Below, piece by piece: positions 11,177 to 35,574 of a stretch of 64,000 nt of DNA. The translations under genes and the position numbers were made by a program. The notes under the pieces are model-generated. The model was not told the DNA's origin. It did not search any database and saw only the letters and a program-made list of their open reading frames with translations. The DNA comes from Fibrobacterota bacterium (GTDB lineage Bacteria > Fibrobacterota > Fibrobacteria > UBA11236). The DNA lies in contig JAEKLQ010000031.1 in assembly GCA_019509785.1 (NCBI GenBank), forward strand, positions 1 through 64,000, in the 5' to 3' direction. The first letter of the stretch is position 1. Each line of letters starts with the position of its first letter.

Positions 11177-11189
11177 AGAAGGCCCGCTT

Positions 11190-12822: not shown

Positions 12823-12826
12823 CGAT

Positions 12827-13222
12827 TTACCTCTCATCAATCCGGAAACTGAAACCGGCCTGCTTAGCCAACGCGTTGCGGATGGATTGGTGGATCCACC
12901 ATTCCGCGAAAGGGGCGAAGCGGCCGTGGGCGGCATCGAAGCTTTGCGCCGCCCGGACCAAGCCCAGGTTGCCTTCTGCGATCAAATCGCCGAGGGGCAG
13001 TCCGCGGTCGCGATGGCCATGGCACGCCTTCACAACGATTTTCAGGTGGGAGGTGATCAGCTCGTTGCGGGCGGTTTTCTCGCCGCGGGATATGCGCTCC
13101 AGCAGCGCCACTTCCCGCTCTCGCGTGGGAATGCGGGTACGCTCGATCTCCCGAAGGTAAGCGGATACGGAGTCCGATCCGGCTTCGGCGTCGATACCTT
13201 GGGAAACGACGGCTTCGGCCAT
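12827..13222 (-). CDS. truncated sigma-70-like protein (regions 1.2-2 only)
   Basis: The 131-aa product contains sigma region 1.2 (about 18-50) and region 2 (HLKIVVKAC; LIAEGNLGLVRAAQSFD; WWIHQSIRNALA, a typical 2.3-2.4 stretch for -10 recognition). It then ends; regions 3 and 4 are absent. The stop is followed at once by the response-regulator gene, so no region 4 is hidden in another frame. GAGGAGG lies 6 nt before ATG 13222. It could bind core polymerase and melt or recognise extended -10 promoters, or act as an anti-sigma-type competitor. It is probably co-transcribed with cobQ upstream and the response regulator downstream. Confidence 0.8.
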   Translation of the reverse strand: MAEAVVSQGIDAEAGSDSVSAYLREIERTRIPTREREVALLERISRGEKTARNELITSHLKIVVKACHGHRDRGLPLGDLIAEGNLGLVRAAQSFDAAHGRFAPFAEWWIHQSIRNALAKQAGFSFRIDER

Positions 13223-13283
13223 GGGTGCCTCCTCGCGTCCAAGCAAAGCGACCGCAAGAACGGCCGCCTCTCCAGCTTTCTAA

Positions 13284-14915: not shown

Positions 14916-17900
14916 TCAGGTATTCCGGCGGTAAGCTCCGCCGACCTGGAAGAGTGCCCCCGAGATGGAACCCAGGGTACAGTACTTCGCCGCTTCCATC
15001 AACTCATCGAAAAGGTTATCACCCCTCCCGGCCGCCGCCTTCAGGCTCTCCAAGGCGCGGGCCGCTTCGACCGGAAATCGTTCCGCGTAGGCGGCCACTT
15101 GGGCCACTTGGGCCTGCTTCTCCGCATCCGTGCTCCGGATCAAGTCCGGGGACGCGGTCGCGCCGCCGCCCTCGGGATCGAGGAAGGTGTTGACCCCGAT
15201 GATGGGCAGTTCACCGCTTTGCTTGCGCCGCTCGTAAAGCATGGACTCGTCCTGGATGCGGCCGCGTTGGTAATTGGATTCCATCGCCCCCAGCACGCCT
15301 CCCCGGGCATCCAACTCGCGGAAGATCTTCAAGACCTCCGCTTCCACCTTGCGGGTGAGTTCCTCCAGGAAATAGCTTCCCTGCCAGGGATTTTCGTTCT
15401 TCATCAGGCCCATCTCCCGGTTCAGGATGAGCTGGATGGCCATGGCCCGGCGCACGGAAGCCTCGGTAGGCGTAGTCACCGCTTCGTCGTAGGCGTTAGT
15501 GTGGAGGGAATTGCAATTGTCCGCGACGGCCAAGAGGGCCTGCAAGGTGGTGCGGATGTCGTTGAATCCGATCTCGCGCGCGTGTAGGGACCGGCCGGAA
15601 GTCTGGATATGGTACTTGAGCATTTGCGAACGGGCATCGGCCCCGTACAGGTCGCGCATGGCGATGGCCCAGATGCGCCTGGCCACGCGGCCGATCACCG
15701 CGTATTCGGGATCGAGGCCGTTGGAAAAGAAGAAGGATAGGTTGGGGGCGAAGGCGCCCACATCCATGCCCCTGGCCTTGTAGTATTCCACGTAGGTGAA
15801 TCCGTTGGCCAAGGTGAGCGCGAGCTGGGTGATGGGATTGGCCCCGGCTTCGGCGATATGGTAGCCGCTGATGCTGACGCTATAGAAATTCCGCACCCCG
15901 TTCCCGATGAAGAATTCCTGGGTGTCCCCCATCAGGCGCAAGGCGAATTCCGTGGAGAAGATGCAGGTGTTCTGCGCCTGTTCTTCCTTGAGGATATCAG
16001 CCTGGACGGTGCCTCTCACGGTGCGCAGGACTTCGGCGCGGATGGTGGCGTATTCGTCAGGCTCCAAGATCAGGCTCGCTGGCAAGCCCAAGAAGCCCAG
16101 GCCGGATCCGTCATGGCCGGCGGGGAGCGGGCCCCGGTAGATGGGATGTTGCAAGTCGCGATCCGCGAACCAGCGGGCGATGCGTTCGGCGGCCACCTCC
16201 CAGCGGCCCTCGTTCTTGAGCTTGCGTTCGCAAGCGGCGTCGATGGCGGCGTTGAAGAAGTAGGCCAGCAGCATGGGCGCGGGACCGTTGATGGTCATGG
16301 AGACCGAGGTGGAAGGCGTGCAGAGATCGAAACCGGAGTAGAGGCGTTTGGCGTCGTCCAGGCAGCATACGGAAACGCCGGAGTTACCCACCTTGCCGAA
16401 GATGTCCGGCCGGTTGCCGGGATCGGAGCCGTACAGGGTCACCGAATCGAAGGCTGTGGACAAGCGGACGGCGGGCTGCCCGCGGCTGACGTAATGGAAA
16501 CGGGCGTTGGTCCTTTCCGCGATGCCTTCGCCGGCGAACATGCGGGTGGGCTCTTCGCCTTCGCGCTTGAACGGGAACACTCCGGAGGTATACGGGAAGC
16601 GGCCGGGCACGTTTTCCGCGCGCAGGAACCCCACCTGATCGGCCCAGCTCCGCGTTTCCGGCAGGGCGACCTTGGGTATCGCGAGGCCGCTCAAGGAAGC
16701 ATGGTGGTTTTGGACCTGGATATCCTGATCGCGTACCCGATAAGTCTGGGATTCCGCCGCATAAGCGGCGCGCAAAGCGTCGAAACCTTCGAGGCTGGTG
16801 CGCGTTTCGGGATCGAGTTCGGCCAGGCGGGCGTCGCGGCGTTCCCGAAGCCGCCGGCCGGTTTCATCGTGAGGGGGAGCGGATTCCGCATCCAGGGCGG
16901 ACGCGGCATGGTCGAAGTGTTGCGCTTCCCCGGCGGCATGGGCCTGGCGGGCCGTCGCGGCGTGGTAGTCTTCGACGGCGGCGGCGACGCGCCTTAGGTA
17001 GTCGGTCCGCTCGCGGGGTAGAAGGCCGCGGCGATGGGGCGCGCCTTCGGGCCAAGGCGTGAAGCCTTTCCAGGCGGGCGATTCCGCCGCAAGCTTCCGG
17101 CAAAGGGCATTGCAAAGGGCGTTCATGCCGGGATCGCGGAAGCGATGGGCGCAGGTTCCGAAGACGGGGAGCTTCTCTAGCGGCTCCGTCCACGTCTTCC
17201 GGTTGCGCTGCCAAGCCTTGCGTACGTCGCGCAGGGCGTCTTCCGCGCCGGCCTTTTCGAATTTGTTCACCGCCACGAAATCGGCGTAGTCCAGCATGCC
17301 GATCTTCTCGAGTTGGCTGGAGGCCCCGTATTCCGGGGTCATGACGTATAGGGTAGTGCCCGCGACATCGGTCACCTCGGTATCGCTTTGGCCGATGCCG
17401 GCGGTCTCGAGAAGGACCAGGTCGAAGCCGGCGGACTGCATGAGGCGGATGCCATCCCGCACGGTCGCGCTCATGGCCGCATGCGCCCGGCGCGTGGCCA
17501 AGGATCGGAAAAATACGCCCCCGGATTTCCCTGCTATCAATCCGGATCTTCCCGCGGCGTTCACGCGCAAGCGATCTCCCAAGAGGGCACCGCCGGTTTT
17601 ACGACGGGACGGATCGATGCAGATGACGGCGATGCGCTTGTCCGGATAGGCTTCCAGCAGGCGGGTGAGCAGTTCGTCGACGATGGAACTTTTTCCCGCG
17701 CCGCCGGTTCCGGTGAGGCCGACCACAGGGCAAACCGCCTTGCCTTCGCAGCGGGCGGCGATGTCCCGGGCAAGGCTTTCCGCTTCGGCGCCCCCGCCCT
17801 CCAAAGCCGTCAACAACCGTCCGATTTCCCGGGCATCATCGGGAGCAAGCCGACTCGGCAAGACCTTGGGGAGCGGAACGGGAACCGCGCGGCATTCCTC

Positions 17901-18365
17901 GATCATAAGGCGGATCATGCCTTCCAGCCCCATGACGCGGCCGTCTTCCGGGGAGAAGATGCGGGCGACGCCGCGATCATGGAGCAATGCCGCTTCCTCG
18001 GCGGTGATGACGCCTCCCCCGCCCCCGTAAACTCGGATATGCCCGCAATCGCGGGCGCGCAGCGATTCCACCAGAAAGGTGAAATACTCGACGTGCCCGC
18101 CCTGGTAGCTGGATATGGCGATGCCTTGGACGTCTTCCTGGATGGCGGCATCGACCACTTCTTGCACCGAGCGGTCATGGCCGAGATGGATGACCTCGGC
18201 GCCTTCCGCGACCAGCACGCGGCGCATGATATGGATGGCGGCATCGTGTCCGTCGAACAGGGAGGCCGCGGTGATGAAACGGATGGGAGCCTGGCCGCCG
18301 GATCCGGATTGGCCCGAAGGGACAGAAGGGTCGGATGGGACGGAATGGCCGGATGGGGGATTCAT
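14916..18365 (-). CDS. icmF: fused isobutyryl-CoA mutase (B12 domain, G-protein, mutase)
   Basis: The single 1149-aa chain has an N-terminal cobalamin-binding domain (LFDGHDAAIH at about 36-45 and the glycine-rich YGGGGG). A MeaB-like GTPase with P-loop GTGGAGKS (about 219-226) follows, then the large mutase domain (YTSGVFPFKREGE, HYVSRGQPAVRLSTAFDS, TSGRSLHAREIGFND). This order defines IcmF, which interconverts isobutyryl-CoA and n-butyryl-CoA and repairs itself through the built-in chaperone. The first 25 residues are a Pro/Ser/Gly linker. ATG 18365 overlaps the hydratase stop (ATGA); the longer open frame upstream is a shadow of that gene. Related activities on isovaleryl- or pivalyl-CoA are known in the family. 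Confidence 0.93.
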   Translation of the reverse strand: MNPPSGHSVPSDPSVPSGQSGSGGQAPIRFITAASLFDGHDAAIHIMRRVLVAEGAEVIHLGHDRSVQEVVDAAIQEDVQGIAISSYQGGHVEYFTFLVESLRARDCGHIRVYGGGGGVITAEEAALLHDRGVARIFSPEDGRVMGLEGMIRLMIEECRAVPVPLPKVLPSRLAPDDAREIGRLLTALEGGGAEAESLARDIAARCEGKAVCPVVGLTGTGGAGKSSIVDELLTRLLEAYPDKRIAVICIDPSRRKTGGALLGDRLRVNAAGRSGLIAGKSGGVFFRSLATRRAHAAMSATVRDGIRLMQSAGFDLVLLETAGIGQSDTEVTDVAGTTLYVMTPEYGASSQLEKIGMLDYADFVAVNKFEKAGAEDALRDVRKAWQRNRKTWTEPLEKLPVFGTCAHRFRDPGMNALCNALCRKLAAESPAWKGFTPWPEGAPHRRGLLPRERTDYLRRVAAAVEDYHAATARQAHAAGEAQHFDHAASALDAESAPPHDETGRRLRERRDARLAELDPETRTSLEGFDALRAAYAAESQTYRVRDQDIQVQNHHASLSGLAIPKVALPETRSWADQVGFLRAENVPGRFPYTSGVFPFKREGEEPTRMFAGEGIAERTNARFHYVSRGQPAVRLSTAFDSVTLYGSDPGNRPDIFGKVGNSGVSVCCLDDAKRLYSGFDLCTPSTSVSMTINGPAPMLLAYFFNAAIDAACERKLKNEGRWEVAAERIARWFADRDLQHPIYRGPLPAGHDGSGLGFLGLPASLILEPDEYATIRAEVLRTVRGTVQADILKEEQAQNTCIFSTEFALRLMGDTQEFFIGNGVRNFYSVSISGYHIAEAGANPITQLALTLANGFTYVEYYKARGMDVGAFAPNLSFFFSNGLDPEYAVIGRVARRIWAIAMRDLYGADARSQMLKYHIQTSGRSLHAREIGFNDIRTTLQALLAVADNCNSLHTNAYDEAVTTPTEASVRRAMAIQLILNREMGLMKNENPWQGSYFLEELTRKVEAEVLKIFRELDARGGVLGAMESNYQRGRIQDESMLYERRKQSGELPIIGVNTFLDPEGGGATASPDLIRSTDAEKQAQVAQVAAYAERFPVEAARALESLKAAAGRGDNLFDELMEAAKYCTLGSISGALFQVGGAYRRNT

Positions 18366-19162: not shown

Positions 19163-20782
19163 CTACATCCGGAATAAGCCGAACCCATGCCCATTGCTCC
19201 AACTCCCGTGCCGCACCGCCTCCAGGCATTGGCCCAGCACTTTGCGCGTTTCCAACGGGCTTACGATGCCGTCGTCCCACAGGCGCGCCGTGGCATGATA
19301 GGGAGATCCCTCCCGCTCGTAGGCTTCCACGATAGGCCGTTCCAGATCCTCGATTTCCTGGGCGGAAAGCTTGCGGCCTTGGGACTTCAATTGCTCGATC
19401 TTAACCTGGGAAAGCACCTTGGAGGCCTGATGGCCGCCCATGACGGAGATGCGCGCGTTGGGCCAGGAAAACAGGAAACGAGGGTCGTAGGCCCTTCCGG
19501 CCATCGCGTAATTTCCCGCCCCGTAAGATCCCCCCAGGATCAGGCTGATGATGGGGACCTTGGTGGTGGCCACCGCCGTGACCATCTTGGCGCCATGCTT
19601 GGCGATGCCGCCTTCTTCGAAATGCCGTCCAACCATGAATCCTGGTATATTTTGCAGGAATACCAGGGGAGTGGACCTTTTCTCGCACAACTGGATGAAA
19701 TGGACCGCCTTCAACGCGCCTTCGCTGAAAAGGATGCCGTTATTGCCGATGATGCCCACCGGATAGCCTGAAATGGAGGCGAAGCCGGCGATTATCGTCT
19801 TGCCGTACAACGGCTTGAACTCTTGGAACGATCCGTCGTCGGCAATTCGATTGATTACCTGATGCACGTCGAATGCAGTGCGCAGATCTTTCGGGACAAG
19901 CCCAAGGAAATCTTCCGCGCTCGCCGGGGGTTCCTTCCAATCGGCTGCGCGGGGAAAGAGCGGTTCTGGCCGCCAAGTCCGCGCGATGCCCGCCAAGATG
20001 TCCCGGGTAATGCGTAACGCGTCCCGATCATCTTCAGCGAGATAATCGGCCACGCCGGATTTGCGCGTATGCATCTCCCCTCCCCCGAGATCCTCTGCGC
20101 TCACCTCTTCTCCCGTCGATGCCTTCACCAAAGGCGGTCCGGCCAGGAAGATGGTTCCTTGGTTACGGACGATGACGGTCTCGTCGCTCATGGCGGGGAT
20201 GTACGCCCCGCCGGCCGTGCAACTGCCCATCACCACCGCGATCTGGGGGATGCCCTGCGCGCTCATGCGGGCTTGATTGTAGAAGATGCGGCCGAAATGG
20301 AAACGGTCGGGATAAACCTCGGATTGCAGCGGCAAGTAGGCGCCGCCGCTATCCACCAGATAGATGCAAGGCAAACGGTTTTGCTCGGCGATTTCCTGGG
20401 CGCGCACGTGCTTCTTCACCGTCATGGGGAAATAGCTTCCCCCTTTCACCGTCGCATCGTTGGCGACGATCATGCAAGGGATGCCCGCCACCTTCCCGAT
20501 GCCAGTTACGATCCCGGCCGACGGGCATGCGTCATCGTACATGCCGAAAGCGGCCAACGGGGAGAGCTCGAGGAAATCCGATTCCGGATCGAGCAATAGC
20601 GAAACGCGATCGCGGGCCAGCAGCTTGCCGCGGCCAACGTGCTTTTCCACCGCCTCTTGACCACCGCCGCCCTTGGCGAAGCGCAGGCGCTCGCGCAATT
20701 CGTCGAGCAGCGCCGCGTTATGGACGACGTTCTCGCGCCATTTCTCGTCCATGGCCGCATCCTGCTCCCCGCGCCGGATCAT
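19163..20782 (-). CDS. methylcrotonyl/geranyl-CoA carboxylase carboxyltransferase (beta) subunit
   Basis: The 539-aa length and the conserved stretches [33 protein letters not shown] and [19 protein letters not shown] place it in the MCC/GCC beta branch and not with propionyl-CoA carboxylase. It transfers CO2 from carboxybiotin to a 3-methyl-enoyl-CoA. The matching biotin carboxylase and carrier (alpha) subunit is not in this window, so it must be encoded elsewhere or shared. The AtuA genes upstream favour a methylbranched or terpenoid acyl substrate. The start ATG overlaps the upstream TGA. Confidence 0.87.
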
Positions 20783-21135
20783 GCTTCGCTTCCTTCCGCG
20801 GTCGGACGCATGTCCATGAGATCGGGCGGATCCGAAAGCGGCATTTCCAGCAATGCGGTCGCCAACACCTTCCCTTGCGTATCCGTGCGAAGGGAATCCG
20901 ACGCGCCTCCGCCCAGCACGTTCCGCAATACGAAATTGAAGCCGGGTAGCCGCGGCAGTTCGAATCGATCCACTCGCGCGGGCCTTAAGGCATGGAACCA
21001 GTCCCGCACCCTTTCGGCGGTGAGCTCGCGCGCCAAATACGCATGGCCCGCCGGCGTAAAGGCGATGATACCGATATTGGCATGATCGCCCTTATCGCCG
21101 CTGCGGCCATGGGCGATATCCTTCAGGTGGATCAT
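20779..21135 (-). CDS. AtuA C-terminal domain as a separate small protein
   Basis: This 118-aa protein ([20 protein letters not shown] near its start) matches the C-terminal domain that in many AtuA proteins is fused to the large DUF1446 domain. Here it is a separate chain immediately downstream of the large domain, with ATGA overlaps on both sides (21132-21135 and 20779-20782), so the three products are probably made together. AtuA is needed for acyclic terpene degradation in Pseudomonas, but its reaction is not known. The start ATG 21135 was chosen from the overlap; the longer frame is a shadow. Confidence 0.82.
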
Positions 21136-22580
21136 GCGGCCTCCTGCTTCGCGGCGAGTTCGGTCGCCGAGCGCGTTTGGACGCGGGCCGGGACGCGCGT
21201 CCGGGATACGGTCGAAGGCCAATAGGAAAGCACGGGGCGAGGCTTGGGCCGGGACCCGGCGTATCCGGTGACTCCGGGCGGGCCCGAGGTGATGATGGGC
21301 GAGAACTCGCGGCAAAACCTCTCGATGGCTTCCTTACGGGAATCCCAGGCCGACACCCGCAGGACCACTTCCCTTGGCGGGATCCCTCCGGCGCTGCCGG
21401 TGGCGCGGGCCGGCGCGGCCAGCTTACCGAAAGGCCCCTCAGGCGAAAAACCACCCGGTAAAGCCGCCTCGGTACCGAGCAATTCGATTTCCGTACGCGC
21501 GAGCGTGAATCCCGCCAATCCCACCCGATCGATGATCATCTCACCGCACGACCGCGCTTTCTCCGGGGCATCGGCGCCGCAGACCACCAAATCTCCCTTG
21601 GCGGCGAAGCCATTGGCATGGGCGCAGGAGACTTTCAGGGTGGAGGGGGGCGGAAGGCCTTTGGCTCCCTTAACCTTCACCCGGTCGCGTCCCAAGTCGT
21701 CCACCTCGACTCCGGTCAGGTCGAGGGTCACGTCGGGAGTGAGGTAGGCCGAAGGATCGCCGATCTCGTAGAGTAACTGCTCGGTTACGGTCTCCCTGTC
21801 GACCAGGCCTCCGGATCCCTGCGGCTTGGTGATGATGCAGTCGCCCGTACGCGACAGGACCGCGATGGGATAGCCGATGCGCGCATAATCGGGGACGTCG
21901 CGCCACCGGGTGCGCAGGCCGCCGGTGACTTGGGCCCCGCATTCGATCAGATGGCCCGCCAAGCTGGCGGCGGCCAACATGTCCCAATCCTCCCAGTCCC
22001 AGCCGAAAACGTGCATGGCCGGGCCCACGGTCAAGGAGGCGTCCGCCACGCGCCCGGTGATGACGATGCGGGCCCCTCCATCGAGCGCTTCGCAAATGGG
22101 ACGGGCTCCCAAATAGGCATTGGCGCTGACGAAAGCGGTAGGCGGCTCGCGTCCCGGCGCGTCGAAATGGTGGAAGCGCTCTCCGGCGGCTTTCAGTTCG
22201 CTCAGGCGCGGCAAAAGATCATCTCCGGTGATCCAAGCGATGCGCGTCTCCCCCATCCCCGCTTCGGCGAGATGACGCGCGGCGACCCGCGCGCAGGCTT
22301 CCGGATTGAGTCCGCCGGCATTGGTCACGATCCTTAAAGCCGGCTGGGCCTTAAGGCTCGGGATCAGCCGTTTCAAGGTCTCGGGGAAATCGGGAATGTA
22401 ACCCGCATCCGGGTCTCGACGGCGTTGATGCGCCAGCATGGAGAGGGTGAGTTCGGCCAGGTATTCGAGGGTCAGGAAATCCAACTCCCCCGTCTCGGCC
22501 AGGCGGATAGGCGCGTCCAGGTTGTCTCCCCAGAAGCCCGCGCCATTACCGATGCGTACGCTATCAGGCCCCCGCGCCAT
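21132..22580 (-). CDS. AtuA-like protein (DUF1446, acyclic terpene utilisation)
   Basis: The 482-aa protein opens with VRIGNGAGFWGDN and contains GDDLLPRL, ITGRVADASLTVGP and ECGAQVTGG, characteristic of the AtuA/DUF1446 family. The family is associated with carboxyl-transferase operons for citronellol/geraniol or branched acyl-CoA breakdown, but its biochemical role is unknown. The usual C-terminal domain is split off as the next gene. It lies 15 nt after the acyl-CoA dehydrogenase gene. Confidence 0.85.
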   Translation of the reverse strand: MARGPDSVRIGNGAGFWGDNLDAPIRLAETGELDFLTLEYLAELTLSMLAHQRRRDPDAGYIPDFPETLKRLIPSLKAQPALRIVTNAGGLNPEACARVAARHLAEAGMGETRIAWITGDDLLPRLSELKAAGERFHHFDAPGREPPTAFVSANAYLGARPICEALDGGARIVITGRVADASLTVGPAMHVFGWDWEDWDMLAAASLAGHLIECGAQVTGGLRTRWRDVPDYARIGYPIAVLSRTGDCIITKPQGSGGLVDRETVTEQLLYEIGDPSAYLTPDVTLDLTGVEVDDLGRDRVKVKGAKGLPPPSTLKVSCAHANGFAAKGDLVVCGADAPEKARSCGEMIIDRVGLAGFTLARTEIELLGTEAALPGGFSPEGPFGKLAAPARATGSAGGIPPREVVLRVSAWDSRKEAIERFCREFSPIITSGPPGVTGYAGSRPKPRPVLSYWPSTVSRTRVPARVQTRSATELAAKQEAA

Positions 22581-22595
22581 GGGACCGCCCTCCGT

Positions 22596-24575
22596 TCATG
22601 CCGCCCGCGTCCCGGGAAACTGCTTGATGAATTCCTTCTTGACCGCGCGCCCTTGGCCCATGGCGTTGGGCGAACGCTCGGGCAGTACGAAGCGCGCGTG
22701 CGGCAGGGTATCCGAATAAGCCAAGGCGGCCTTGGCGGCCAATTCCATGGTTTCGTCCGGATTGCGGAAAAGCGATTCCACGCAATGGTGGTATTCATGC
22801 GCGGCCATATCCAGGAAATGCAGGCCCGCCGCGCGATCGCGTTCCCAGGCCGCGCCCGTCGCGCCCGCCTTCAGTTGCTTGTCCAGCTTGGAAAGCACGC
22901 AGGCCGAAGCGTGCAGCCACATGGCCATGTCCGCCAAGCGCGCGTGGATGGCGCCGCGCGTCACGATCTTCTCCTGCACCTGGTAACTGATTTTCTTGAA
23001 CTGGTAGGCATGATCCTGGACCAGCTTTTCGAAGCGGCTGGCCCACGGCGCGAGATCGGAATGCATGCCGACCAGGCGCGGCGCGTCCTTGCGGATGCCG
23101 AGGAAAACCTCGCCCGCGATGCCCAAGGCCCGCTTCAGTATCGGGAGGTTCATGGCGTGGCGGACGATGCGGACCACGTTGCCGGGCAGGCTTTCCTGGC
23201 TATTCCACGTCAGCGCCGCCTGGATGCCCAGCATGGATTCGGCCAATTGCTTGCCGCCGTAGCTGAAAACGAAGGACTGCATCACCTCGTTGGCGCCTTC
23301 CACGATCAGGTAGATGCGCGCGTCCCGGAAGGCGCGCTCCACCTCGTTCTCCGTCATGTAGCCTTCGCCGCCCATGATTTGCACCGCGTCGTTGATGGCG
23401 CGCCAACCCATCTCCGAGGCGAAGATCTTGCAAGCCGCCGTCTCGACCATGATGTCCGAATCGTGCCGATCGAGGATGCCGGTGGTGAAATAAAGCACCG
23501 AGTCGATTGCGTAGCAATAGGCCGCCATGCGCGCGATTTTCTGCTGCACCAATTCGAAATCGGCCAAGGGACGCTTGAACTGGTATCGGGTCTGCGACCA
23601 TTTCACGGCCTGATCCATGCAGGTGCGCGCGGAACCCAACATGCCCGCCGACAAGGTACAGCGCCCGTAGTTGAGGCAGGTGAGGGCCACTTGCAGTCCC
23701 TTGCCTTCCTTATGGAGCATGTTGGCCTTGGGGATGCGGGCGTTGGTGAAGCGGATGCGCGCCTGCCAGGTCCCGCGGATGCCGCATTTACTGCGGTTCT
23801 TCTCGATCACCTCCACGCCCGGCATGTCCGGCGTGCAGATGAGGGCGGTAACGGCGTCATGCGCCTTGCCGGTCTTGGCATCGGTGAACGACTGCTTGGC
23901 CATTACCGTGAACATGCCCGATAGCGCTCCCGAGGTGGACCATTTCTTCTCGCCATTGAGGATATAGTATTGGCCATCCTCGCTTAACTTACAACGCGTC
24001 TCCTGTCCGCCCGCATCGCAGCCCACGTTGGGCTCGGACAGGGAGAAGGCGGAGAGCATATCGTTGGCCAGGCGCGGTAGCCACTTCTTCTTCTGATCTT
24101 CGTTCCCGAACACCACCAGGGCCTTGCAGCCGATGGACTGGTGCGCGGAAACCACCACCGCCGTCGAAGCGCAATACGATCCGATCATTTCCAAGGCCCG
24201 ATTGTAGCTGGTCACCCCCAAGCCTTGCCCGCCGTATTCCTTGGGGATGTTCATCCCCATCACGCCCAGGGAGAAAAGCTTCTTGATGCACCAATCGGGG
24301 ATGGCCTCTTCCTGATCGATCTGGATGCGGGGATGTTCGTTCTCGAGGTAATCCTTCAGCTTGGCCAGGATGGCATCGCAGCGATCCCTCTCTTCCGCGG
24401 AGACTTCCGGATACGGGAAAGCCAACTCTTGGCGGATGTTCCCCCAGAACAGGTTCTTGATGAATCCCATCTCCCCGGGCTCGGGGCCGAGCATGGCCTC
24501 GGCTTCCTCGATCATCTTGCGATCGCGTTCGGATATGCCTTTGATGTCCTTCAGGTCGCCCGTTTTCTGTATCAT
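22596..24575 (-). CDS. acyl-CoA dehydrogenase, long (VLCAD/ACAD9-like) form
   Basis: The 659-aa chain has an approx. 90-residue N-terminal extension, the acyl-CoA dehydrogenase core (FSLSEPNVGCDAGG, TRYQFKRPLADF, QIMGGEGYM, RIYLIVEGANEV) and a helical C-terminal domain of about 180 residues. This makes it longer than the usual 380-aa short-chain enzymes and similar in layout to VLCAD/ACAD9. It would oxidise an acyl-CoA with FAD and pass electrons to ETF. In this operon the expected substrates are butyryl-CoA from the mutase or isovaleryl-CoA. No ETF genes are seen nearby. Confidence 0.88.
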   Translation of the reverse strand: MIQKTGDLKDIKGISERDRKMIEEAEAMLGPEPGEMGFIKNLFWGNIRQELAFPYPEVSAEERDRCDAILAKLKDYLENEHPRIQIDQEEAIPDWCIKKLFSLGVMGMNIPKEYGGQGLGVTSYNRALEMIGSYCASTAVVVSAHQSIGCKALVVFGNEDQKKKWLPRLANDMLSAFSLSEPNVGCDAGGQETRCKLSEDGQYYILNGEKKWSTSGALSGMFTVMAKQSFTDAKTGKAHDAVTALICTPDMPGVEVIEKNRSKCGIRGTWQARIRFTNARIPKANMLHKEGKGLQVALTCLNYGRCTLSAGMLGSARTCMDQAVKWSQTRYQFKRPLADFELVQQKIARMAAYCYAIDSVLYFTTGILDRHDSDIMVETAACKIFASEMGWRAINDAVQIMGGEGYMTENEVERAFRDARIYLIVEGANEVMQSFVFSYGGKQLAESMLGIQAALTWNSQESLPGNVVRIVRHAMNLPILKRALGIAGEVFLGIRKDAPRLVGMHSDLAPWASRFEKLVQDHAYQFKKISYQVQEKIVTRGAIHARLADMAMWLHASACVLSKLDKQLKAGATGAAWERDRAAGLHFLDMAAHEYHHCVESLFRNPDETMELAAKAALAYSDTLPHARFVLPERSPNAMGQGRAVKKEFIKQFPGTRAA

Positions 24576-24578: not shown

Positions 24579-25823
24579 TCACTCCGCTTTCCGCACCACC
24601 AATGCCGTGACGGTCATATCGTTCCCGCCCATGCTTACCATCATACCATGTTCCTTGCCAGCGCGGCCCACCTTGGCGGGATTGGGGGCCTTGCCCGTGA
24701 ACTGCTCAAGGAGGTCCACCATCTGGCGCACCCCCGTCGCCCCCACCGGATGTCCGAATCCGCATAAACCGCCGGATAGATTCACGGGGAGGGGTCCCTC
24801 CGGCGCTACCCCGCCTTCCGCGACGAATCCGGGCGCCTTTCCCGGTGCGGCGAAGCCGAGGCTTTCCAGGGCCAATAATCCCGTGATGGAAAAGCAATCA
24901 TGCAGCTCCAGCACGCCGATGTTTTCCTTCCCGATCCCGGCCATTCCCAAGGCTCCCTGCGCCGCCCTGGCGGTATTCTCCAACACGGTGGGATCGGCGG
25001 GACGCCCGGTGATATCGCCTTCGCTGCCATGGAAGCCCGCCAATTCGATGGCCTCCGCCTTCGCCAGTCCCAAACGCTTCAGGCCCTCTTCGCTGGCCAT
25101 CACCAGGGCCGAAGCCCCGTCCGAAACTTTCGAGCAATCGTAGAGGTTCAGGTGCGGCACGAATTTCCGCCCGTCCGGCGGGGTCATCCCCAGGGCCACG
25201 AGATCGGATGCCGCGTTATGATGCTCCTGGGCCTTGGGATTCTTCCGGGCGTTCAGGATGGCGCGCTCGAACCATTTGGCCATGCCTTTGCGGGCCTCCG
25301 CCTCCCCGTAACGTTGGTAATACGCCCCCGCCCGGTCCGAAAAGGTGCCGGGGAAGAAAAAGGCGTGCCCGCGCTTTCGCTCGCCGTTGAAATACCCCGC
25401 TCCCGCCAGGATATCCGCCACGTACACGGCCTTCACCAGGTTCTGCACTTCGAAACCCATTACGAAGACCGTATCGGCGGTGCCGGCCAGGATGGATCGC
25501 GCGGCGGCCGCCAAGGCCAACCCGCCCGATCCGCACGCCCCTTCAACCCGGACGCAGGGCTTGCCCTTCAGGCCGGGCACGGCCATGGGCAGAAAGCCGG
25601 GCAGGTTGCCCTGCTTCAGGAAGCGCCCGGCCATGAAATTGGCGATCACGCCTTCGTCGAAATCCGGATGGGGCACTTGGGCCAGCACGCCTTGGGCCGC
25701 GTCCTTGAGGTACGACTCGAAGGTGGGCATGGGTTGCTTGGGATGGAATTCCTTCCGTCCCGATCCGAAGCAGACGGTATTATGGCCCGCGGCGAGGAAA
25801 ACGCGTTTTCCCATGGGTCTCAT
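24579..25823 (-). CDS. thiolase (acetyl-CoA acetyltransferase, SCP2-like)
   Basis: This 414-aa thiolase has the acylated cysteine in VEGACGSGG (about residue 95), the histidine region LELHDCFS and the C-terminal GGLCGFGHPVGATG. The HDCF form and spacing fit the SCP2/archaeal-type thiolase branch more than FadA. It would cleave acetoacetyl-CoA or a 3-oxoacyl-CoA. It lies 5 nt after the 3-hydroxyacyl-CoA dehydrogenase gene and 3 nt before the acyl-CoA dehydrogenase gene. Confidence 0.88.
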   Translation of the reverse strand: MRPMGKRVFLAAGHNTVCFGSGRKEFHPKQPMPTFESYLKDAAQGVLAQVPHPDFDEGVIANFMAGRFLKQGNLPGFLPMAVPGLKGKPCVRVEGACGSGGLALAAAARSILAGTADTVFVMGFEVQNLVKAVYVADILAGAGYFNGERKRGHAFFFPGTFSDRAGAYYQRYGEAEARKGMAKWFERAILNARKNPKAQEHHNAASDLVALGMTPPDGRKFVPHLNLYDCSKVSDGASALVMASEEGLKRLGLAKAEAIELAGFHGSEGDITGRPADPTVLENTARAAQGALGMAGIGKENIGVLELHDCFSITGLLALESLGFAAPGKAPGFVAEGGVAPEGPLPVNLSGGLCGFGHPVGATGVRQMVDLLEQFTGKAPNPAKVGRAGKEHGMMVSMGGNDMTVTALVVRKAE

Positions 25824-25828: not shown

Positions 25829-27229
25829 TTACCCCTGGCCCCAGTCGGCCGGCCCGTACAGGTGGAAGAAGCCCAACTTAAGCACCTGGCCCACGTCGTC
25901 GAGGGACGCCGCCACGCCGTCGCGGACCAAATCTTCGGCCACGATCCGGGAATGATCGAGGAATTCCCGCGCCAGACGGGCGCCGTTCCCGGGAGCCTTC
26001 TTCAGGACGCCGAAATAGGCGGAAAGCTTGGCGGCTTTACCGGGATCCTTGGATAGATGGGACCAGGAAATCCGGGCCGCGGGCGGACTAGCCGGGGAAG
26101 GCGGCTCACCCAACCAGGCATCGGCCTTTGCGAAGCGGCCGGGTTGGGTCAGGGAAACGTAGCGGTTTCCTTCCGAAGCCAGGGCGTCGGCCAGGACGCC
26201 GGCCGGCTTGTTGCGCTCGTAACGGAGAAGTCCGTCTTTCTGTTCGCCGCTGCCCCGTTGGCCGCCCTTGATGCCGGCAGCCAGAAGCGCGTCAAGGGTC
26301 GCATCCGCGAAGATGCTCCCCCCGTTTCCCTTCGCGGGCAGATGCTCCCGCATCACCTTGGCGATCATCTGGAACACGTCCAAGCCCACGTAGTCCATCA
26401 ATTGCACGATGCCCATCGGCCGGACCAGGAAATCCTGGGTGGTCCTGTTCAATAAGTACCAGGCCTCCGGCTCGCTCCACTCCTTCCGCAATTCGCGGTA
26501 TTTTTCCAAGGCGAAGAGCAACTCCCGGATGAAATGCCCGTTGCCGATGAAGCCCGCTACATCCTTGGACGCGACAATGGTCTTACCGAAGGCCTTGCCC
26601 AAATCCTTTCCCAAGGCGATCGCTTCGGGCCGCGTGCGCTTCCCGGGGATCAATTCGACCAGCTTCTGGATCGCGGGCGGATTGTAGAAGTGGAATCCCA
26701 GCAGACGCCCGTCCAAGCCGGCGCTTTCGTCCAGCTGGGAAATGGGGATGGAAGACGTATTGGTCAGGAAAATCGTTTCGGGGGAGCAGCGGGATTTCAG
26801 CCCCGCGTAAAGCTCGCGCTTCAGGGCCGCATCCTCGAAGACGGCTTCGAATACGATCCGCGCGGAGGCGGCCTCGGCGACTTCCGTCCCCCAGCGGGCC
26901 ATCGCCAGGGCGCCGTCCACGTATGCCTCGATAATCTCCCCGTTCTCGATCAATTCGGCGCGGTCCTTCGCCCAGGCCCGCAACTCGGAAATATTCTTTT
27001 CCGCGTTCTTGAGCAACTGCCCGCGCAGGTATTCCCGCAACCGCCCGAACGCTTTCCGATCGGCATCGATGAGGACGAGTTCGTATTCTCCCGAACCCGG
27101 GGACCCATGGGAAAGCGCATCCAGGTCGGCCATCGCCTTCAGGGCCACCCAGGCGATGCCGCTCCCCATCTTGCCGCCCGCGCCTATAACGGCGACGGAC
27201 TTCAGGCGTTCGCGCCAGTCCATGTTCAT
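25829..27229 (-). CDS. 3-hydroxyacyl-CoA dehydrogenase
   Basis: The 466-aa protein begins with an NAD-binding Rossmann motif (VAVIGAGGKMGSGIAW) and has the catalytic region FHFYNPP followed by VELIPG. A second dehydrogenase-type domain includes FIGNGHF and PMGIVQLMDYVGLDV. It oxidises 3-hydroxyacyl-CoA to 3-oxoacyl-CoA. There is no fused hydratase as in FadB. ATG 27229 overlaps the TGA of the oxidoreductase gene, so it is the second gene of the operon. The longer open frame is a shadow. Confidence 0.9.
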   Translation of the reverse strand: MNMDWRERLKSVAVIGAGGKMGSGIAWVALKAMADLDALSHGSPGSGEYELVLIDADRKAFGRLREYLRGQLLKNAEKNISELRAWAKDRAELIENGEIIEAYVDGALAMARWGTEVAEAASARIVFEAVFEDAALKRELYAGLKSRCSPETIFLTNTSSIPISQLDESAGLDGRLLGFHFYNPPAIQKLVELIPGKRTRPEAIALGKDLGKAFGKTIVASKDVAGFIGNGHFIRELLFALEKYRELRKEWSEPEAWYLLNRTTQDFLVRPMGIVQLMDYVGLDVFQMIAKVMREHLPAKGNGGSIFADATLDALLAAGIKGGQRGSGEQKDGLLRYERNKPAGVLADALASEGNRYVSLTQPGRFAKADAWLGEPPSPASPPAARISWSHLSKDPGKAAKLSAYFGVLKKAPGNGARLAREFLDHSRIVAEDLVRDGVAASLDDVGQVLKLGFFHLYGPADWGQG

Positions 27230-30200
27230 TGTTCCGCCGCTGCGGGGATTTCCCAATGGATGAGCCGCGCCACCGTGGCCCGGTGGATGGAGAACATGTT
27301 GCGGAGGTAAGCCAAGCGGTAGCGCCAGAAGCCCATCTCTTCCGCAAGCAGCTTCCACTCCCCGCGCAGCAGCCAATAATCGCGCTCCAAGGCCGCGTCG
27401 TCATGCGCGGAATGCGACATCATCTTCTGGATGGAGTAATACTTTTGCAGCTTTTTCTTCCAGCTTCGCTTGCCGAAGGTCCACGGGAACCAATCGATGG
27501 TCGTCCGCTTCCGCATGTATAGGGTACGGCCTTCGCGGTCCTTTACTTCCTTGTACCTGAGCGAGTAGAGATTATAGAAGTGGGAGTCGAGCGCCATCTT
27601 CTGGGCCCCTAAGGCCCTGGCCAGGTTCATTCCCTGCTCCAGGCAACTGAAGTGCATCAACAGGAGGAACGGCTTCCGCTCTTCCCGCACCACGTGGTGA
27701 CCCCACTGCAGCTTACGGTATAGATCCGCCAGGTGCACGGTCGAGGCCACCGCCCCCTGCACCCGGAATTTCTCCGCGTATTTCAGGAAGTTGAGCGGCT
27801 CCCGTCGCGAGACGTGCCCGTCGCGGGTCTTCGCGCCGGTCATGGTCGTGGCCGTGGCCTGCCCGCCGGTATTGCCCAAGGTCTGGTTGATGACCACGAT
27901 GTGGAAGATGGGATCCTGCTGATGCAAGGCATCCTCGACCGAGCGCAATCCTTGGATGAAACCGCCGTCGCCGGAAATGGAAACCACGATATCGCCGGAA
28001 GCCACGTTATGCGACAACCCGGAGGCCACGCCATGGGCCGTCTCGAAGGCGATGCGGATATAGGGAAGGTTCCAAATCGAGGTCCGGTTCAGGCCGGAGA
28101 TCACCGTACCGCAGCCATCCTGCTCGCTGACGTAGATTTTGCCCTTGTCTTGTTGCAGATATCCCAGGTAGTTGAACACGGTGCGGAAGATGTTCATCTG
28201 CCCGCAACCCGCGCATGCCATATCGCCCGCGGTGAGCGGCCCCGTGCCGTTCAGGGCGATGTACATGCTTTGTACCTTGTTGATGGTCGGGTGGAAGCGG
28301 AACATAGTCTGATAGGCCCATTTCTTGAGGCCGTACAGTTTCTCCAGCATGCGTAGCTTGCGCGGATTATCCAACGCCTTGAGTATGGGTTCGGGCAGGA
28401 TGCGGGCTTGGAACTGTTCCAAGCTTTCCATCGGCGAGGCCGGCCCGCTTTCCTCTCCGGGGCCGCTTCCCGCGCTCCAATCCTCGCCCGCGAACGCCGC
28501 CGGCACCTTCCCATCGGGCGCCGTCCCCGGCGGACGCAGCAAGGCCAGCTTGGACTCCTGATCCGCTTTCCGGTACGCCAGGAAGCCCGCCACCACCGCT
28601 TCCCGGTTCTTGGGCGTCAACAGCAGGCGCGCCTCCTTCTCGACGCCTTTCACTTGCCCGACCGCGTCCAACAGGGCCAGCAGTTCCTCCGCATCGTCCG
28701 CGCCCATATTCGCGAGCATGGCCCCGCATAGGATCATGTTGGTCCGCGCGGCGCTTCCGAACAACCGGCGCGCGATCCCCTTGGCGGGAATCAGCACTAT
28801 GCGTCCGCCCGGCGGCATCAGTCCGCGGTAACGACGCGCCGTTTCCTCATCACTGTCCAGGATCAGGATACCGCCCGGGCTAAGTTGCTTGAGCATCGGT
28901 TCCAGGGACACGTCGCCATCGAAGGCCATGATGGTATCGGCCATGATGATGTCCGACCAATCGCGGATGGGCTCATTGGATTGCTTGATGGATAAGGTGA
29001 TGCCGCCGCCGCGCTGGAGCGCGCCGAATCCGGCCATGGAAAGCGCATACTGGCCTTTCACGCTGGCCAAGCCGGTGAAGATGGAGTTCAATTGCAACAG
29101 GCCTTGGCCGCCCTTGCCGATCACGGCTATCTGGCGCACTCCCTCTTCCATCAGGGGAACGTCGAAGGACGCATCGGTCTGGGGATACGCGTTGCCGCGG
29201 GTTCCCAGCACGAAGGAATGGCCGGGGGCATGTTCCTTCAGCCATTTGTGGGCGCGCGTCTCGGGAAGGCCCGACGACAAGTCGGAGAGCATGCGGAAAA
29301 GGGCCACCCAATGCGGGATGGTCACCGCGCGGCCGCCCAGGCCGATGGTGGCGGAGACCAGGAAGGGCGGATGATCCAAATCGTACAGGGCCGAACGGAT
29401 TTCCTGAGCCAGGACGCCGCCCCCCGATCGCCCCGACCAATTATTGTATTCCACCACGGCGACGGCTTTGCATCCGGCCATCGCCGCCTGCAGGGCTTCC
29501 GCCGGGAAGGGGCGGTACAGGTTGATGGAAACCACTCCGCAACGGACGCCCTGGTCGCGCAAGCGCCCGGCCACGTACTCCGCCGCCGACATGTCCGGAT
29601 CGTTCAGGCCGATGATGCAGAAATCCAGGGGCCCTTCCGCGGGATAGCGTTCCACCTTGCGCAGGGCGGGACGTCCCGTGAAGCGCGCCAGCTCGGCGGC
29701 CGCCCCGTCGAAGGCGCGGCCGGCCCGGCTCAGAACCTCATCGATGGCCTGGCGCTGCTCCGCGTAACGGCTGTCCATGTCCAGCACGCCCACCGAACGG
29801 TTTTCCTTATCGTCGAATACGAAGGGATTCTGCGGCCGCCCCAGGAATGCGTCGGCATCCGCGTCGCTCAACTTTTGCAAATGCCCTTGCTTCTCCGAAG
29901 TCAAGGTATGCGTCTCCACGAATCCCTTCACCACCAAGCGGCCCGGGATCCACACGCCTTCCGACTCCATCAGCTTGAGCAACAGCATGGCCTTGTCGTA
30001 ATCGTCCTGGATGCCCCGGCCGAAAAGCATGATCTCGCCGGTATCCGAGGTCCGGAAGGTGGTGGTATGGTCCGGCTTGGTGGTCGTGCCCGGCGACAAG
30101 GCGCGGGTCAGCTCCAGCATGAAGATGGGCAAGTGCAAGCCGGGATTGATGTTCATGAACTCGTAGATCTGCGCCAGGCTTTGCGAGCCCTGTGCCATCA

Positions 30201-31089
30201 GGGAGCGCTTCCCGCGCACGGCCGATCCCGTCAGCCAGGCATATCCCGATTCTTCCGAGAGGCAAGGGCGGAACTGCAAGTGGTGCTGGGCATCGGGGGA
30301 TTGCCTGGAGGCGCGCTCCTCGATATGCTTCAAGAGGGAGGTGTTCGGGGTGATGGGGAAGATGGATACGTTGTCGAACTTCGCTTGGAAGGTGAAGTCG
30401 GAAAACATCGACGATCCGTTGAAGACCTGCGGGGCGGCGCCGGATAGTTCCCGCGCCGGATGGGCCGCCACGATGGCGGCGGCATCCTTGATCCAACCTT
30501 GGACCTTCTGCTCGCCTTCGGCGGACGGCGACTTGAAGATTTCCGCCACCCGGCCGGGCGTAATGGGCTGCCCGTCGTACTTCTTCACGTCCACCAATTC
30601 GGCGGGCACGAAATGGATGGCGCCCGTCGGGCATGCCGAAGCGCATACGAAACATCCCTTGCAATGGCTGTAATTGGTCGCGCCCTTCTTGACCTGATGG
30701 GTTTCGGTGCGCGGATCCAGATTGACGCCCGGCAGCAGGTTGAAGGTCTTGGTGAAGAGATGGAAGATGGGCTCCACCGCGCGGTCGCCCACTTCATAGC
30801 CGATGGAATGATGAGGGCAGGCCACTACGCAATGCAGGCAATCGATGCATTGGGTCGAAAGGGTTATCGGGATGAAATTCTTATCGGTCCAGTTGCGCGC
30901 GGCCGCGTTCCCGCCCGCCACCACCGTACCCTTGTCGGAAAAATCCTGGAAGGTTTCCAGGCGGATGAGGCGATCGCCCAGCACCTGGTTGGGCGCCTCG
31001 TTGATGGAGGAAAGGTGGATGAAGTCGGAAGCCTTGAGGGTCGCGGCTTCCCCGCGCCCTTGCGCTCCCGTGCCGGCGTTCGCGATCAT
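27226..31089 (-). CDS. single-chain 2-oxoacid:ferredoxin oxidoreductase with N-terminal ferredoxin
   Basis: All parts of a 2-oxoacid:ferredoxin oxidoreductase are in one 1287-aa chain. First comes a two-[4Fe-4S] ferredoxin domain (CIDCLHCVVACP about 81-92; CKGCFVCASACP about 143-154). The alpha domains follow (SIFPITPNT about 242-250; GLNDPDMSAAEY near 494), then a gamma domain (VIGKGGQGLL near 655) and a C-terminal TPP-binding beta domain (CAGCGQM near 960; SGDGG near 1040; GNTGGQ near 1072). In pyruvate synthases of the NifJ type the ferredoxin domain lies between gamma and beta; here it is first. GGAGG sits 6 nt before ATG 31089. As leader of a branched acyl-CoA operon it may oxidise branched-chain 2-oxoacids, but specificity is inferred. 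Confidence 0.88.
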   Translation of the reverse strand: MIANAGTGAQGRGEAATLKASDFIHLSSINEAPNQVLGDRLIRLETFQDFSDKGTVVAGGNAAARNWTDKNFIPITLSTQCIDCLHCVVACPHHSIGYEVGDRAVEPIFHLFTKTFNLLPGVNLDPRTETHQVKKGATNYSHCKGCFVCASACPTGAIHFVPAELVDVKKYDGQPITPGRVAEIFKSPSAEGEQKVQGWIKDAAAIVAAHPARELSGAAPQVFNGSSMFSDFTFQAKFDNVSIFPITPNTSLLKHIEERASRQSPDAQHHLQFRPCLSEESGYAWLTGSAVRGKRSLMAQGSQSLAQIYEFMNINPGLHLPIFMLELTRALSPGTTTKPDHTTTFRTSDTGEIMLFGRGIQDDYDKAMLLLKLMESEGVWIPGRLVVKGFVETHTLTSEKQGHLQKLSDADADAFLGRPQNPFVFDDKENRSVGVLDMDSRYAEQRQAIDEVLSRAGRAFDGAAAELARFTGRPALRKVERYPAEGPLDFCIIGLNDPDMSAAEYVAGRLRDQGVRCGVVSINLYRPFPAEALQAAMAGCKAVAVVEYNNWSGRSGGGVLAQEIRSALYDLDHPPFLVSATIGLGGRAVTIPHWVALFRMLSDLSSGLPETRAHKWLKEHAPGHSFVLGTRGNAYPQTDASFDVPLMEEGVRQIAVIGKGGQGLLQLNSIFTGLASVKGQYALSMAGFGALQRGGGITLSIKQSNEPIRDWSDIIMADTIMAFDGDVSLEPMLKQLSPGGILILDSDEETARRYRGLMPPGGRIVLIPAKGIARRLFGSAARTNMILCGAMLANMGADDAEELLALLDAVGQVKGVEKEARLLLTPKNREAVVAGFLAYRKADQESKLALLRPPGTAPDGKVPAAFAGEDWSAGSGPGEESGPASPMESLEQFQARILPEPILKALDNPRKLRMLEKLYGLKKWAYQTMFRFHPTINKVQSMYIALNGTGPLTAGDMACAGCGQMNIFRTVFNYLGYLQQDKGKIYVSEQDGCGTVISGLNRTSIWNLPYIRIAFETAHGVASGLSHNVASGDIVVSISGDGGFIQGLRSVEDALHQQDPIFHIVVINQTLGNTGGQATATTMTGAKTRDGHVSRREPLNFLKYAEKFRVQGAVASTVHLADLYRKLQWGHHVVREERKPFLLLMHFSCLEQGMNLARALGAQKMALDSHFYNLYSLRYKEVKDREGRTLYMRKRTTIDWFPWTFGKRSWKKKLQKYYSIQKMMSHSAHDDAALERDYWLLRGEWKLLAEEMGFWRYRLAYLRNMFSIHRATVARLIHWEIPAAAEQ

Positions 31090-31546: not shown

Positions 31547-32584
31547 CTAAGGAACCACCGGCATGAGGGCGGACACTGTCCACCCGTTCCCGTCCGCCAC
31601 CAGCCGGTAAACCCCGGATGTCTTGGACCGGAAGGGGATTTCACCCGCCCGGGCTTTCGCCTCGAACACGACCCGGCCCTGAAGATCCAGGATGCGTATT
31701 CGCACGCCCGGTTCGACCCCATCCAGCCTAAAAGCGCCCGCCGCATATGCGGCGGATATCCGGGCGCGTTTATCTCCGGGCAAGGGCCGGGCGGAAGTCG
31801 CCGCCCCATGCAATGTCCACTGCTTGAAGAAGCCCCAAACCTCTTCGCTGCCGTTCATCTTGGTCTTCGTGTCCATGGGCCATTCGTGCGGCCCTCCTTT
31901 GATGGAGTCGGCCCAGACCGCGATACCGTCCTTGCAAGGGCCGAATTCCATATGCGTAACGACGGAGCTGGCATTGCCCGCGGGATAGGGGCGGGTGATG
32001 GCCGGCGTTTTCGGGCAGCCATCGAAATCGGCTATGATCCCGAGGTCCTTCATGAAAGCGTCGGGCGTGAGCACATCGCTGGTGCCGAAAATGGCGAGCA
32101 GCGGGATGGTCCGCTTCGGGACGCAAGTCTCCTGGATCCGCCCCGAGACGGGGGCTACGGCGGCGAACTTATCCGCGTACCGGCAGGCGGCATGGTAGGC
32201 CATGACACCGCCTTGGGAGAAACCTGAGACATAAACACGTTCGCGATCGATATGGTATCGGACGTCGAGGGTGTCGACTATGGCCAGGAGAAACTCGAAA
32301 TCGGTGGCAGGCGCGGTTTGCCAGGAGTTGTTGATCCCGTTCGGGTAGACGGCGAGGAATTTCTCCTTATCCGCGACGGCATCCATCTTGGTATTGGTCA
32401 CCATCTGCGCGCCGGTCATGCCCGAGCCATGCAGGACGAAGACGACGGGCGGTTTGGACAGGCCCGTGGGGGCGTGCAGGATGAAATGGCGCGCGACTCC
32501 GCCGAACTGGATGGTCTGATCCTGGGCGAAGGCCCCGGCGAGCAAAGAGGCTAGGACGGCCACGGAAATCCTCAGGTGCTGCAT
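31547..32584 (-). CDS. secreted PHB-depolymerase/feruloyl-esterase-like enzyme with sorting-type C-domain
   Basis: After a signal peptide (about 1-20) there is an alpha/beta-hydrolase of the polyhydroxybutyrate depolymerase/LpqC/CE1 type. It has FVLHGSGMTG, the nucleophile serine in GFSQGG (near 118), an acid in FGTSD and histidine in PHEWP. The last 70 residues (RIRILDLQGRVVFEA to SGVYRLVA) resemble the C-terminal sorting domain of type IX secretion cargo. It is the last of three tandem paralogs. The likely role is cleaving ester links in plant cell wall or polyester, but the substrate is unproven. Confidence 0.85.
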   Translation of the reverse strand: MQHLRISVAVLASLLAGAFAQDQTIQFGGVARHFILHAPTGLSKPPVVFVLHGSGMTGAQMVTNTKMDAVADKEKFLAVYPNGINNSWQTAPATDFEFLLAIVDTLDVRYHIDRERVYVSGFSQGGVMAYHAACRYADKFAAVAPVSGRIQETCVPKRTIPLLAIFGTSDVLTPDAFMKDLGIIADFDGCPKTPAITRPYPAGNASSVVTHMEFGPCKDGIAVWADSIKGGPHEWPMDTKTKMNGSEEVWGFFKQWTLHGAATSARPLPGDKRARISAAYAAGAFRLDGVEPGVRIRILDLQGRVVFEAKARAGEIPFRSKTSGVYRLVADGNGWTVSALMPVVP

Positions 32585-32601
32585 GCGATCCGCCCGGAAG
32601 A

Positions 32602-33639: not shown

Positions 33640-33645
33640 ACCTCC

Positions 33646-34956: not shown

Positions 34957-35244
34957 ATGCTTTTCGTAGTTAAAATGCTTCTGGTGGCGTTCGGCATCTT
35001 CGGCCAGGCCAAGATCATGCCCAATGCGGATTCAACGGTCGAATCGGAGTTGGATACCCTTACCTTGCCCAAGGATCATCCGGAGTGGGTCCTGGCCCGT
35101 CGTGCCATGGCTTCGGAAGGTTTGTGCGGCTCGGGGCATGACGCGGCGAAAGATTCCGTCGTGGCCCTCCGCGAAGGGGAACTTCCGGAAGCCTCCGTCT
35201 CCGACTATTCCATCGTTCGCCTCGTAGCCGAAGCCTGCGAATAG
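34957..35244 (+). CDS. small secreted protein of unknown function
   Basis: The 95-aa product begins with a hydrophobic stretch that reads as a signal peptide (LLVAFGIFGQA, cleavage about residue 18). An acidic region without recognisable motif and with two cysteines follows. AGGAC precedes the ATG closely. If TAGTTTTA upstream is the -10 element, transcription would begin at or near the start codon. The ferredoxin gene follows 24 nt later and is probably on the same transcript. I do not recognise a family. Confidence 0.55.
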   Translation: MLFVVKMLLVAFGIFGQAKIMPNADSTVESELDTLTLPKDHPEWVLARRAMASEGLCGSGHDAAKDSVVALREGELPEASVSDYSIVRLVAEACE

Positions 35245-35268: not shown

Positions 35269-35574
35269 ATGGACGCCGCCCCCTCCTCCGCATCGTGCCC
35301 CCAGCCAGCCGGTAGATTCGAACCCGTCGTCAATCGCTCGCGTTGCGAGGCCAAAGGCCCCTGCGTCCCGGCCTGCCCCTACTCGGTACTGGAAATCCAT
35401 CCTCTAACCGATACGGACAAGGCCGGGCTGGGTTTCCTGGCCCGCCTCAAGGTGCGGGCCCACGGGAACCGGCAAGCCTTCGCGATCCATCCCGAGGCTT
35501 GCCGCGCTTGCGGGAAATGCGTGGAGGCGTGCCCGGAAAAGGCCATCACCCTACGCCTTCGCGCATTGACATGA
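35269..35574 (+). CDS. two-[4Fe-4S] ferredoxin
   Basis: The 101-aa protein has two cysteine clusters separated by an insert: CEAKGPCVPACP (about 26-37) and CRACGKCVEACP (about 79-90). The first has CxxxxCxxxC spacing, so it is a modified site that may hold an altered cluster, and the second is a normal CxxCxxCxxxCP. It would serve as an electron carrier. The 2-oxoacid:ferredoxin oxidoreductase 4 kb away is a possible partner. Its stop abuts the convergent esterase with no gap. Confidence 0.85.
   Translation: MDAAPSSASCPQPAGRFEPVVNRSRCEAKGPCVPACPYSVLEIHPLTDTDKAGLGFLARLKVRAHGNRQAFAIHPEACRACGKCVEACPEKAITLRLRALT

Follow-up and report, generated by a model that had tools for sequence, protein, structure and literature searches.

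A single-chain 2-oxoacid:ferredoxin oxidoreductase with an N-terminal ferredoxin module heads an acyl-CoA operon in one Fibrobacterota genus

The window, that is, the whole stretch of 64,000 nucleotides analysed here, encodes on its minus strand a single-chain 2-oxoacid:ferredoxin oxidoreductase (OFOR) in which a ferredoxin (delta) module precedes alpha domains I-II, gamma and beta, an order that is real and far above chance. The protein is a variation on a well-known enzyme, and its chain order was found in no other sampled lineage. Our leading interpretation, to which we give roughly even chances, is that its four modules were fused independently of NifJ and that it most likely serves branched-chain 2-oxoacids, feeding the operon it heads. 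We propose more tentatively, at somewhat short of even confidence, that chains of the order delta-alpha-gamma-beta form an OFOR family of their own, fused independently and confined together with its operon to a single Fibrobacterota genus in the sample, where it would link branched-chain 2-oxoacid oxidation to ferredoxin beside PDH, OGDH and NifJ.

Table 1. Features of the oxidoreductase locus, with positions in the window
Feature	Position	Strand	Basis
IcmF, fused isobutyryl-CoA mutase (B12-dependent)	14916..18365	minus	NF045497
Enoyl-CoA hydratase (crotonase), 265 aa	18362..19159	minus	AtuE-type hydratases among closest structures
Acyl-CoA carboxylase carboxyltransferase, methylcrotonyl-CoA carboxylase (MCC) beta-like	19163..20782	minus	Pfam, homology matches
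AtuA ferredoxin-like domain protein (PF23544), likely start ATG at 21135	20779..21135	minus	Pfam
AtuA family protein (PF07287)	21132..22580	minus	Pfam
Acyl-CoA dehydrogenase, ACAD9/VLCAD type	22596..24575	minus	Pfam, relatives' loci
Thiolase	24579..25823	minus	Pfam, profile models, relatives' loci
3-hydroxyacyl-CoA dehydrogenase (3HCDH)	25829..27223	minus	Pfam
Single-chain 2-oxoacid:ferredoxin oxidoreductase, 1287 aa (delta-alpha-gamma-beta)	27226..31089	minus	ORF, Pfam, orthologue alignment
C-terminal extension after TPP domain, residues 1181-1287, ~107 aa, conserved	27229..27549	minus	Orthologue alignment
Beta/TPP module, residues 945-1180, cysteines C959 C962 C993 C1149	27550..28257	minus	Pfam, alignments
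Gamma module (POR 660-835), GKGGQG loop just N-terminal at 658-663	28585..29112	minus	Pfam
Alpha module, domains I-II (POR_N 235-398, PFOR_II 501-591)	29317..30387	minus	Pfam, alignments
Delta (ferredoxin) module, residues 66-170	30580..30894	minus	Pfam; two CxxCxxCxxxCP motifs 50 residues apart
Small conserved ORF, 95 aa, in front of ferredoxin gene	34957..35244	plus	ORF, relatives' loci
Dicluster ferredoxin, 101 aa, divergent from oxidoreductase	35269..35574	plus	ORF, relatives' loci

Domain order, motifs and predicted electron route

The open reading frame lies exactly where the initial annotation had placed it. Its start is an ATG with GGAGG 6 nt upstream, and the N-terminus (MIA...) is common to all five orthologues in the alignment. 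Five genomes carry the same open frame, which rules out an artefact of assembly or frameshifting. A Pfam profile search returned the order Fer4x2 - POR_N - PFOR_II - POR(gamma) - TPP_C, precisely the one initially described and none different. The Fer4 dicluster was detected at about residues 68-163 (PF12838 30.4 bits, PF13187 30.2, PF13237 29.9, each above cut-off), while alpha matched PF01855 (59 bits) and PF17147 (59 bits), gamma PF01558 (76 bits) and beta PF02775 (TPP_enzyme_C, 1012-1129, 52 bits). The latter four all exceed the Pfam gathering score and represent OFOR superfamily domains I, II, III/gamma and VI/TPP. As a control, the same library applied to the genome's own NifJ gave alpha-gamma-EKR-Fer4-beta, congruent with the earlier statement that NifJ-type enzymes carry the ferredoxin domain between gamma and beta. 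In the orthologue alignment a variable linker (~840-885) precedes beta. The C-terminal extension contains many invariant Trp, Tyr and Arg residues; it is placed like the arm-like domain VII of D. africanus PFOR, and no sequence match to that domain was found.

Key OFOR residues were located via a HMMER alignment to solved enzymes and a MAFFT alignment to Por subunits, with the meaning of the YPITP motif, the carboxylate-binding Arg and the pocket residues taken from structural work on the superfamily (PMC5020499). Both delta cluster motifs are full CxxCxxCxxxCP (C81-C91 and C143-C153). The YPITP motif of alpha reads FPITP at 244-248, with T247 kept, and the carboxylate-binding Arg and conserved Glu correspond to R329 and E279, respectively. 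GKGGQG is present in gamma, and beta harbors the four proximal-cluster cysteines together with GDGG (1040-1043) and NTGGQ (1073-1077). The claim that all domains have intact motifs was thus confirmed, and the alignable catalytic positions as well as twelve candidate cluster cysteines (eight in delta, four in beta) are invariant across four orthologues at 79-82% identity, so that the oxidoreductase looks like a maintained enzyme. AlphaFold2 modeling of residues 46-1245 with the five-orthologue alignment yielded a pLDDT of 31.9 and a pTM of 0.28.

The predicted chemistry, in which a 2-oxoacid is oxidatively decarboxylated with the help of TPP to give acyl-CoA and the electrons go to ferredoxin, is well supported at the sequence level and corresponds to the established OFOR mechanism (PMC5020499, PMC8091585). 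For catalysis, the dimer, the electron route, the ferredoxin partner and the substrate we infer the following scheme. The chain would most likely form a homodimer, in which TPP between domain I and beta would decarboxylate the 2-oxoacid and gamma-held CoA would accept the acyl group. Two electrons would pass one by one from the proximal [4Fe-4S] cluster in beta to the two N-terminal delta clusters, and onwards to an external ferredoxin. The initial annotation had raised an electron path peculiar to this chain order, which we do not uphold: the same three [4Fe-4S] sites are present, and as the ferredoxin module lies beside the proximal cluster in known OFOR structures in either architecture, as domain V of one chain or gamma-fused (PMC5020499), a new position along the chain need not alter the route. 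A location of the N-terminal clusters near the beta cluster is here argued from homology only.

The divergent ferredoxin is perhaps the external electron acceptor, and is a candidate for this role. Its gene was recovered upstream in four of the five loci (the window and three relatives, at 66-68% identity), the contig of the fourth relative being too short, and the 95-aa ORF in front of it was seen in both relatives read in detail. Between the oxidoreductase and this gene, the window also contains three tandem esterase-like ORFs with signal-like N-termini (31547-34707, minus strand), which are absent from the corresponding gap in two relatives, L004 and L006.

Relationship to known oxidoreductases and distribution

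Known OFORs include homodimers as well as enzymes of two, three and four subunits (PMC5020499, PMC13285125). With NifJ (TIGR02176; D. africanus, M. thermoacetica) the chain shares its single-chain nature, the alpha-gamma-beta relative order and three [4Fe-4S] sites, but its ferredoxin module is N-terminal rather than between gamma and beta. It could therefore be a NifJ whose ferredoxin domain was shuffled to the N-terminus and which functionally remains a PFOR, a reading for which the common core order, NTGGQ and the long stretch between the delta cluster motifs, as in NifJ-type chains, would speak. We nevertheless consider it highly improbable: the EKR domain, a hallmark of PFOR (PMC13285125) present in the genome's own NifJ, is absent from the oxidoreductase by Pfam, the NifJ equivalog TIGR02176 yields 71.3 bits against a cut-off of 911 (the genome's own NifJ reaches 1781), and the alpha clade stands apart from NifJ. 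Identity to the alpha of the genome's own NifJ is only ~23%.

The four-subunit Por/Vor enzymes (PorGDAB, e.g. 9bt4) comprise the same four modules, with alpha 25-31% identical (~102-168 bits), but these are separate genes with gamma first, whereas the oxidoreductase is fused, has another substrate loop and a 50-residue spacing between the delta motifs, as compared to 18-27 in the PorD proteins compared. Among profiles, it matches pyruvate-type models best for both alpha and beta (PorA_Arch, PRK11865). PorA_Arch (NF040682) gives 154.6 bits, below the cut-off of 550, and the chain is fused, placing it outside the four-subunit pyruvate synthases; the alpha model of Vor (NF006232, 2-ketoisovalerate:ferredoxin oxidoreductase) gives 122.5 bits against 646, less than the Por models, with all scores far under cut-off. 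Oxalate oxidoreductase (M. thermoacetica, 5c4i) has the same modules and an alpha match of 1e-23, but there gamma-delta is fused, alpha and beta are separate and the motif is YPIRP, which in the alignment is absent from the present chain with its FPITP. Core domains I-III and VI are held in common with the two-subunit OFOR/Kor (S. tokodaii type), which however is a gamma-alpha fusion without ferredoxin module; the Lys important for 2-oxoglutarate in such enzymes (PMC5020499) is replaced here by V996. In indolepyruvate oxidoreductase (IOR), finally, subunits E and F (alpha and beta) are joined to each other (PMC13285125), while here gamma stands between them, so that the chain is not an IOR-type fusion.

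Consistent with the suggestion that the order marks a separate branch, the five fused chains group together (100/100) in a maximum-likelihood tree of alpha, on a very long stem of ~5 changes per site, in addition to lacking EKR, scoring far sub-threshold for NifJ and occurring in one genus of the sample. Two NifJ-like rows form a separate clade (97/99), with long branches leaving the attachment point of the fused chains unsettled. By profile score, alpha is closer to Por-type alpha than to NifJ (154.6 bits for PorA_Arch versus 71 for TIGR02176). In those four-gene operons that were retrieved, alpha is immediately preceded by the delta gene, making a delta-alpha fusion a short step, and gamma, where found, is located before delta, so that its position between alpha and beta requires a rearrangement. 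With moderate confidence, the sequences point to a fusion independent of NifJ.

Five of the six genomes of one genus contain the full chain, with no match found in the sixth (G092, ~90% complete) or in any other of the 151 Fibrobacterota genomes. A profile search of ~450 genomes of other phyla (handle count; a bacteria-wide draw plus one further phylum, a shallow sample) gave no full-length match, only separate alpha proteins of ~400 aa. Scanning 84,980 species genomes with one protein returned same-genus loci only, by exact 8-residue peptides, a method insensitive to distant relatives. The plasmid collection yielded, by tblastn, NifJ-like and multi-subunit enzymes only, none covering 80% of the query, and no oxidoreductase relatives were found in viral_contigs. 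No paper describing the delta-alpha-gamma-beta order was found in the literature searched, a search that most subscription literature and UniProt lie outside. At this depth of sampling, the order may also occur elsewhere. A donor search via the acyl-CoA dehydrogenase gave nearest outside matches of ~60%, without the oxidoreductase on their contigs. The 6.1-Mb genome G444 contains a distant ACAD-carboxyltransferase-AtuA cluster, and the fused OFOR was detected in 0 of 68 genomes of its phylum.

Two further loci deserve mention in their own right. A Persicobacter plasmid (L018:2908-7692) carries a NifJ-like protein that extends beyond the sequence retrieved and is at least 1595 aa long; it contains large insertions and, close to its end, an additional cysteine motif. 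A 955-aa frame in G363, considered as a candidate relative, turned out to belong to a PadG-like multi-gene set; there (L060, G363:C14:24000-30500), PadG-like alpha and beta genes adjoin a glutamate-synthase-like flavoprotein with a ferredoxin module at its end, and the set as a whole looks like that of an NAD-linked phenylglyoxylate dehydrogenase.

The operon and the probable substrate

The oxidoreductase is the first gene of a compact operon (intergenic gaps -4 to +15 nt), and four other genomes keep its gene order up to the ends of their contigs. The 3HCDH starts at an ATG 2 nt past the oxidoreductase end; a second ATG in the same frame overlaps that gene's stop codon. Most top matches of the carboxyltransferase favor MCC beta over geranyl- or propionyl-CoA carboxylase, and no dedicated biotin-carboxylase partner was found beside it; biotin-carboxylase matches elsewhere in the genome are a 467-aa chain, a urea carboxylase and a 1159-aa frame. 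The hydratase, among whose close structural relatives is isohexenylglutaconyl-CoA hydratase, is kept in L004, L005 and L006; located between the carboxyltransferase and IcmF, its gene had been masked by an over-extended 1345-aa IcmF frame (14916-18953). IcmF itself scores 1594.6 bits with NF045497, above the cut-off of 1500, and its alignment retains the Phe (RMFAG) and Gln (QNTC) that we take to be the isobutyryl-CoA mutase signature. It adjoins the operon in three of four readable loci (the window and two of three relatives), the exception being L004. Of the 151 Fibrobacterota genomes, five encode the fused OFOR, and these five and no others also encode AtuA. On the far side of IcmF (10151-14843, minus strand), cobyric acid synthase CobQ adjoins this B12-dependent enzyme, with a Kbl-Tdh threonine degradation pair further on.

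Given an operon that combines IcmF and an MCC-like carboxyltransferase with a complete set of beta-oxidation enzymes, the most economical substrates would be branched-chain 2-oxoacids, and we regard these as the probable ones, this Vor-like function being deduced from the operon only. The operon enzymes would then degrade the branched-chain acyl-CoA products, those of valine via isobutyryl-CoA and those of leucine via isovaleryl-CoA. IcmF would convert isobutyryl-CoA to butyryl-CoA, to be followed by acyl-CoA dehydrogenase, hydratase, 3HCDH and thiolase, while the isovaleryl-CoA branch would employ the carboxyltransferase, the hydratase and AtuA. The genome also encodes PDH E1 and OGDH E1 (both above cut-off), NifJ and a Kor-type gamma-alpha chain, so that pyruvate and 2-oxoglutarate already have dedicated enzymes, which we count in favor of branched-chain substrates. 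The substrate range of its own that had been suggested for the enzyme is plausible, given that the loop after the carboxylate Arg reads SPGTTTKPDH as compared to SAPINIxxDH in the PorA consensus and that the operon is unlike that of a pyruvate enzyme, with the substrate itself assigned by inference. Several observations count against the branched-chain reading, however: no residue signature establishes such a substrate, the Vor alpha model scores lower than the Por models, the ACAD belongs to the long-chain type, branched-chain acids could be served by a fused E1 alpha-beta 2-oxoacid dehydrogenase (G000:C28), IcmF does not adjoin the operon in L004, and no dedicated biotin-carboxylase partner was found beside the carboxyltransferase. 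AtuA and the AtuE-like hydratase would equally suit acyclic-terpene or branched fatty-acid degradation, without any 2-oxoacid step.

This last point leads to an unlikely alternative, in which the substrate is another 2-oxoacid (aryl, or one formed in the breakdown of acyclic terpenes or branched fatty acids) and the operon is Atu-like rather than a branched-chain amino acid pathway. AtuA, the AtuA ferredoxin-like domain protein, the hydratase near isohexenylglutaconyl-CoA hydratase and the long-chain-type ACAD fit such a role, but the carboxyltransferase is nearer MCC beta than geranyl-CoA carboxylase and IcmF indicates isobutyryl-CoA. A slightly better, still rather doubtful, possibility is a second pyruvate (or pyruvate/2-oxobutyrate):ferredoxin oxidoreductase of unusual chain order, with the acyl-CoA genes merely co-transcribed. 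The pyruvate-type top profiles (PorA_Arch, PRK11865) are what one would then expect, and T247, R329, N1073 and V996 match pyruvate-type residues or conservative replacements (PMC5020499); yet NifJ and PDH are already in the genome, several near-invariant alpha positions of the Por set around the substrate loop are replaced, and the operon contains acyl-CoA enzymes of branched-chain type.

If the branched-chain, independently fused enzyme that we favor is correct, it would constitute a second route to fusing all four OFOR modules, and thereby offer a separate check on what module arrangements the fold can accommodate, as well as on whether the ferredoxin module must be tethered beside beta. In bacteria equipped with PDH and OGDH, the operon would furthermore connect ferredoxin-dependent oxidation of 2-oxoacids with IcmF and the breakdown of branched acyl-CoAs.
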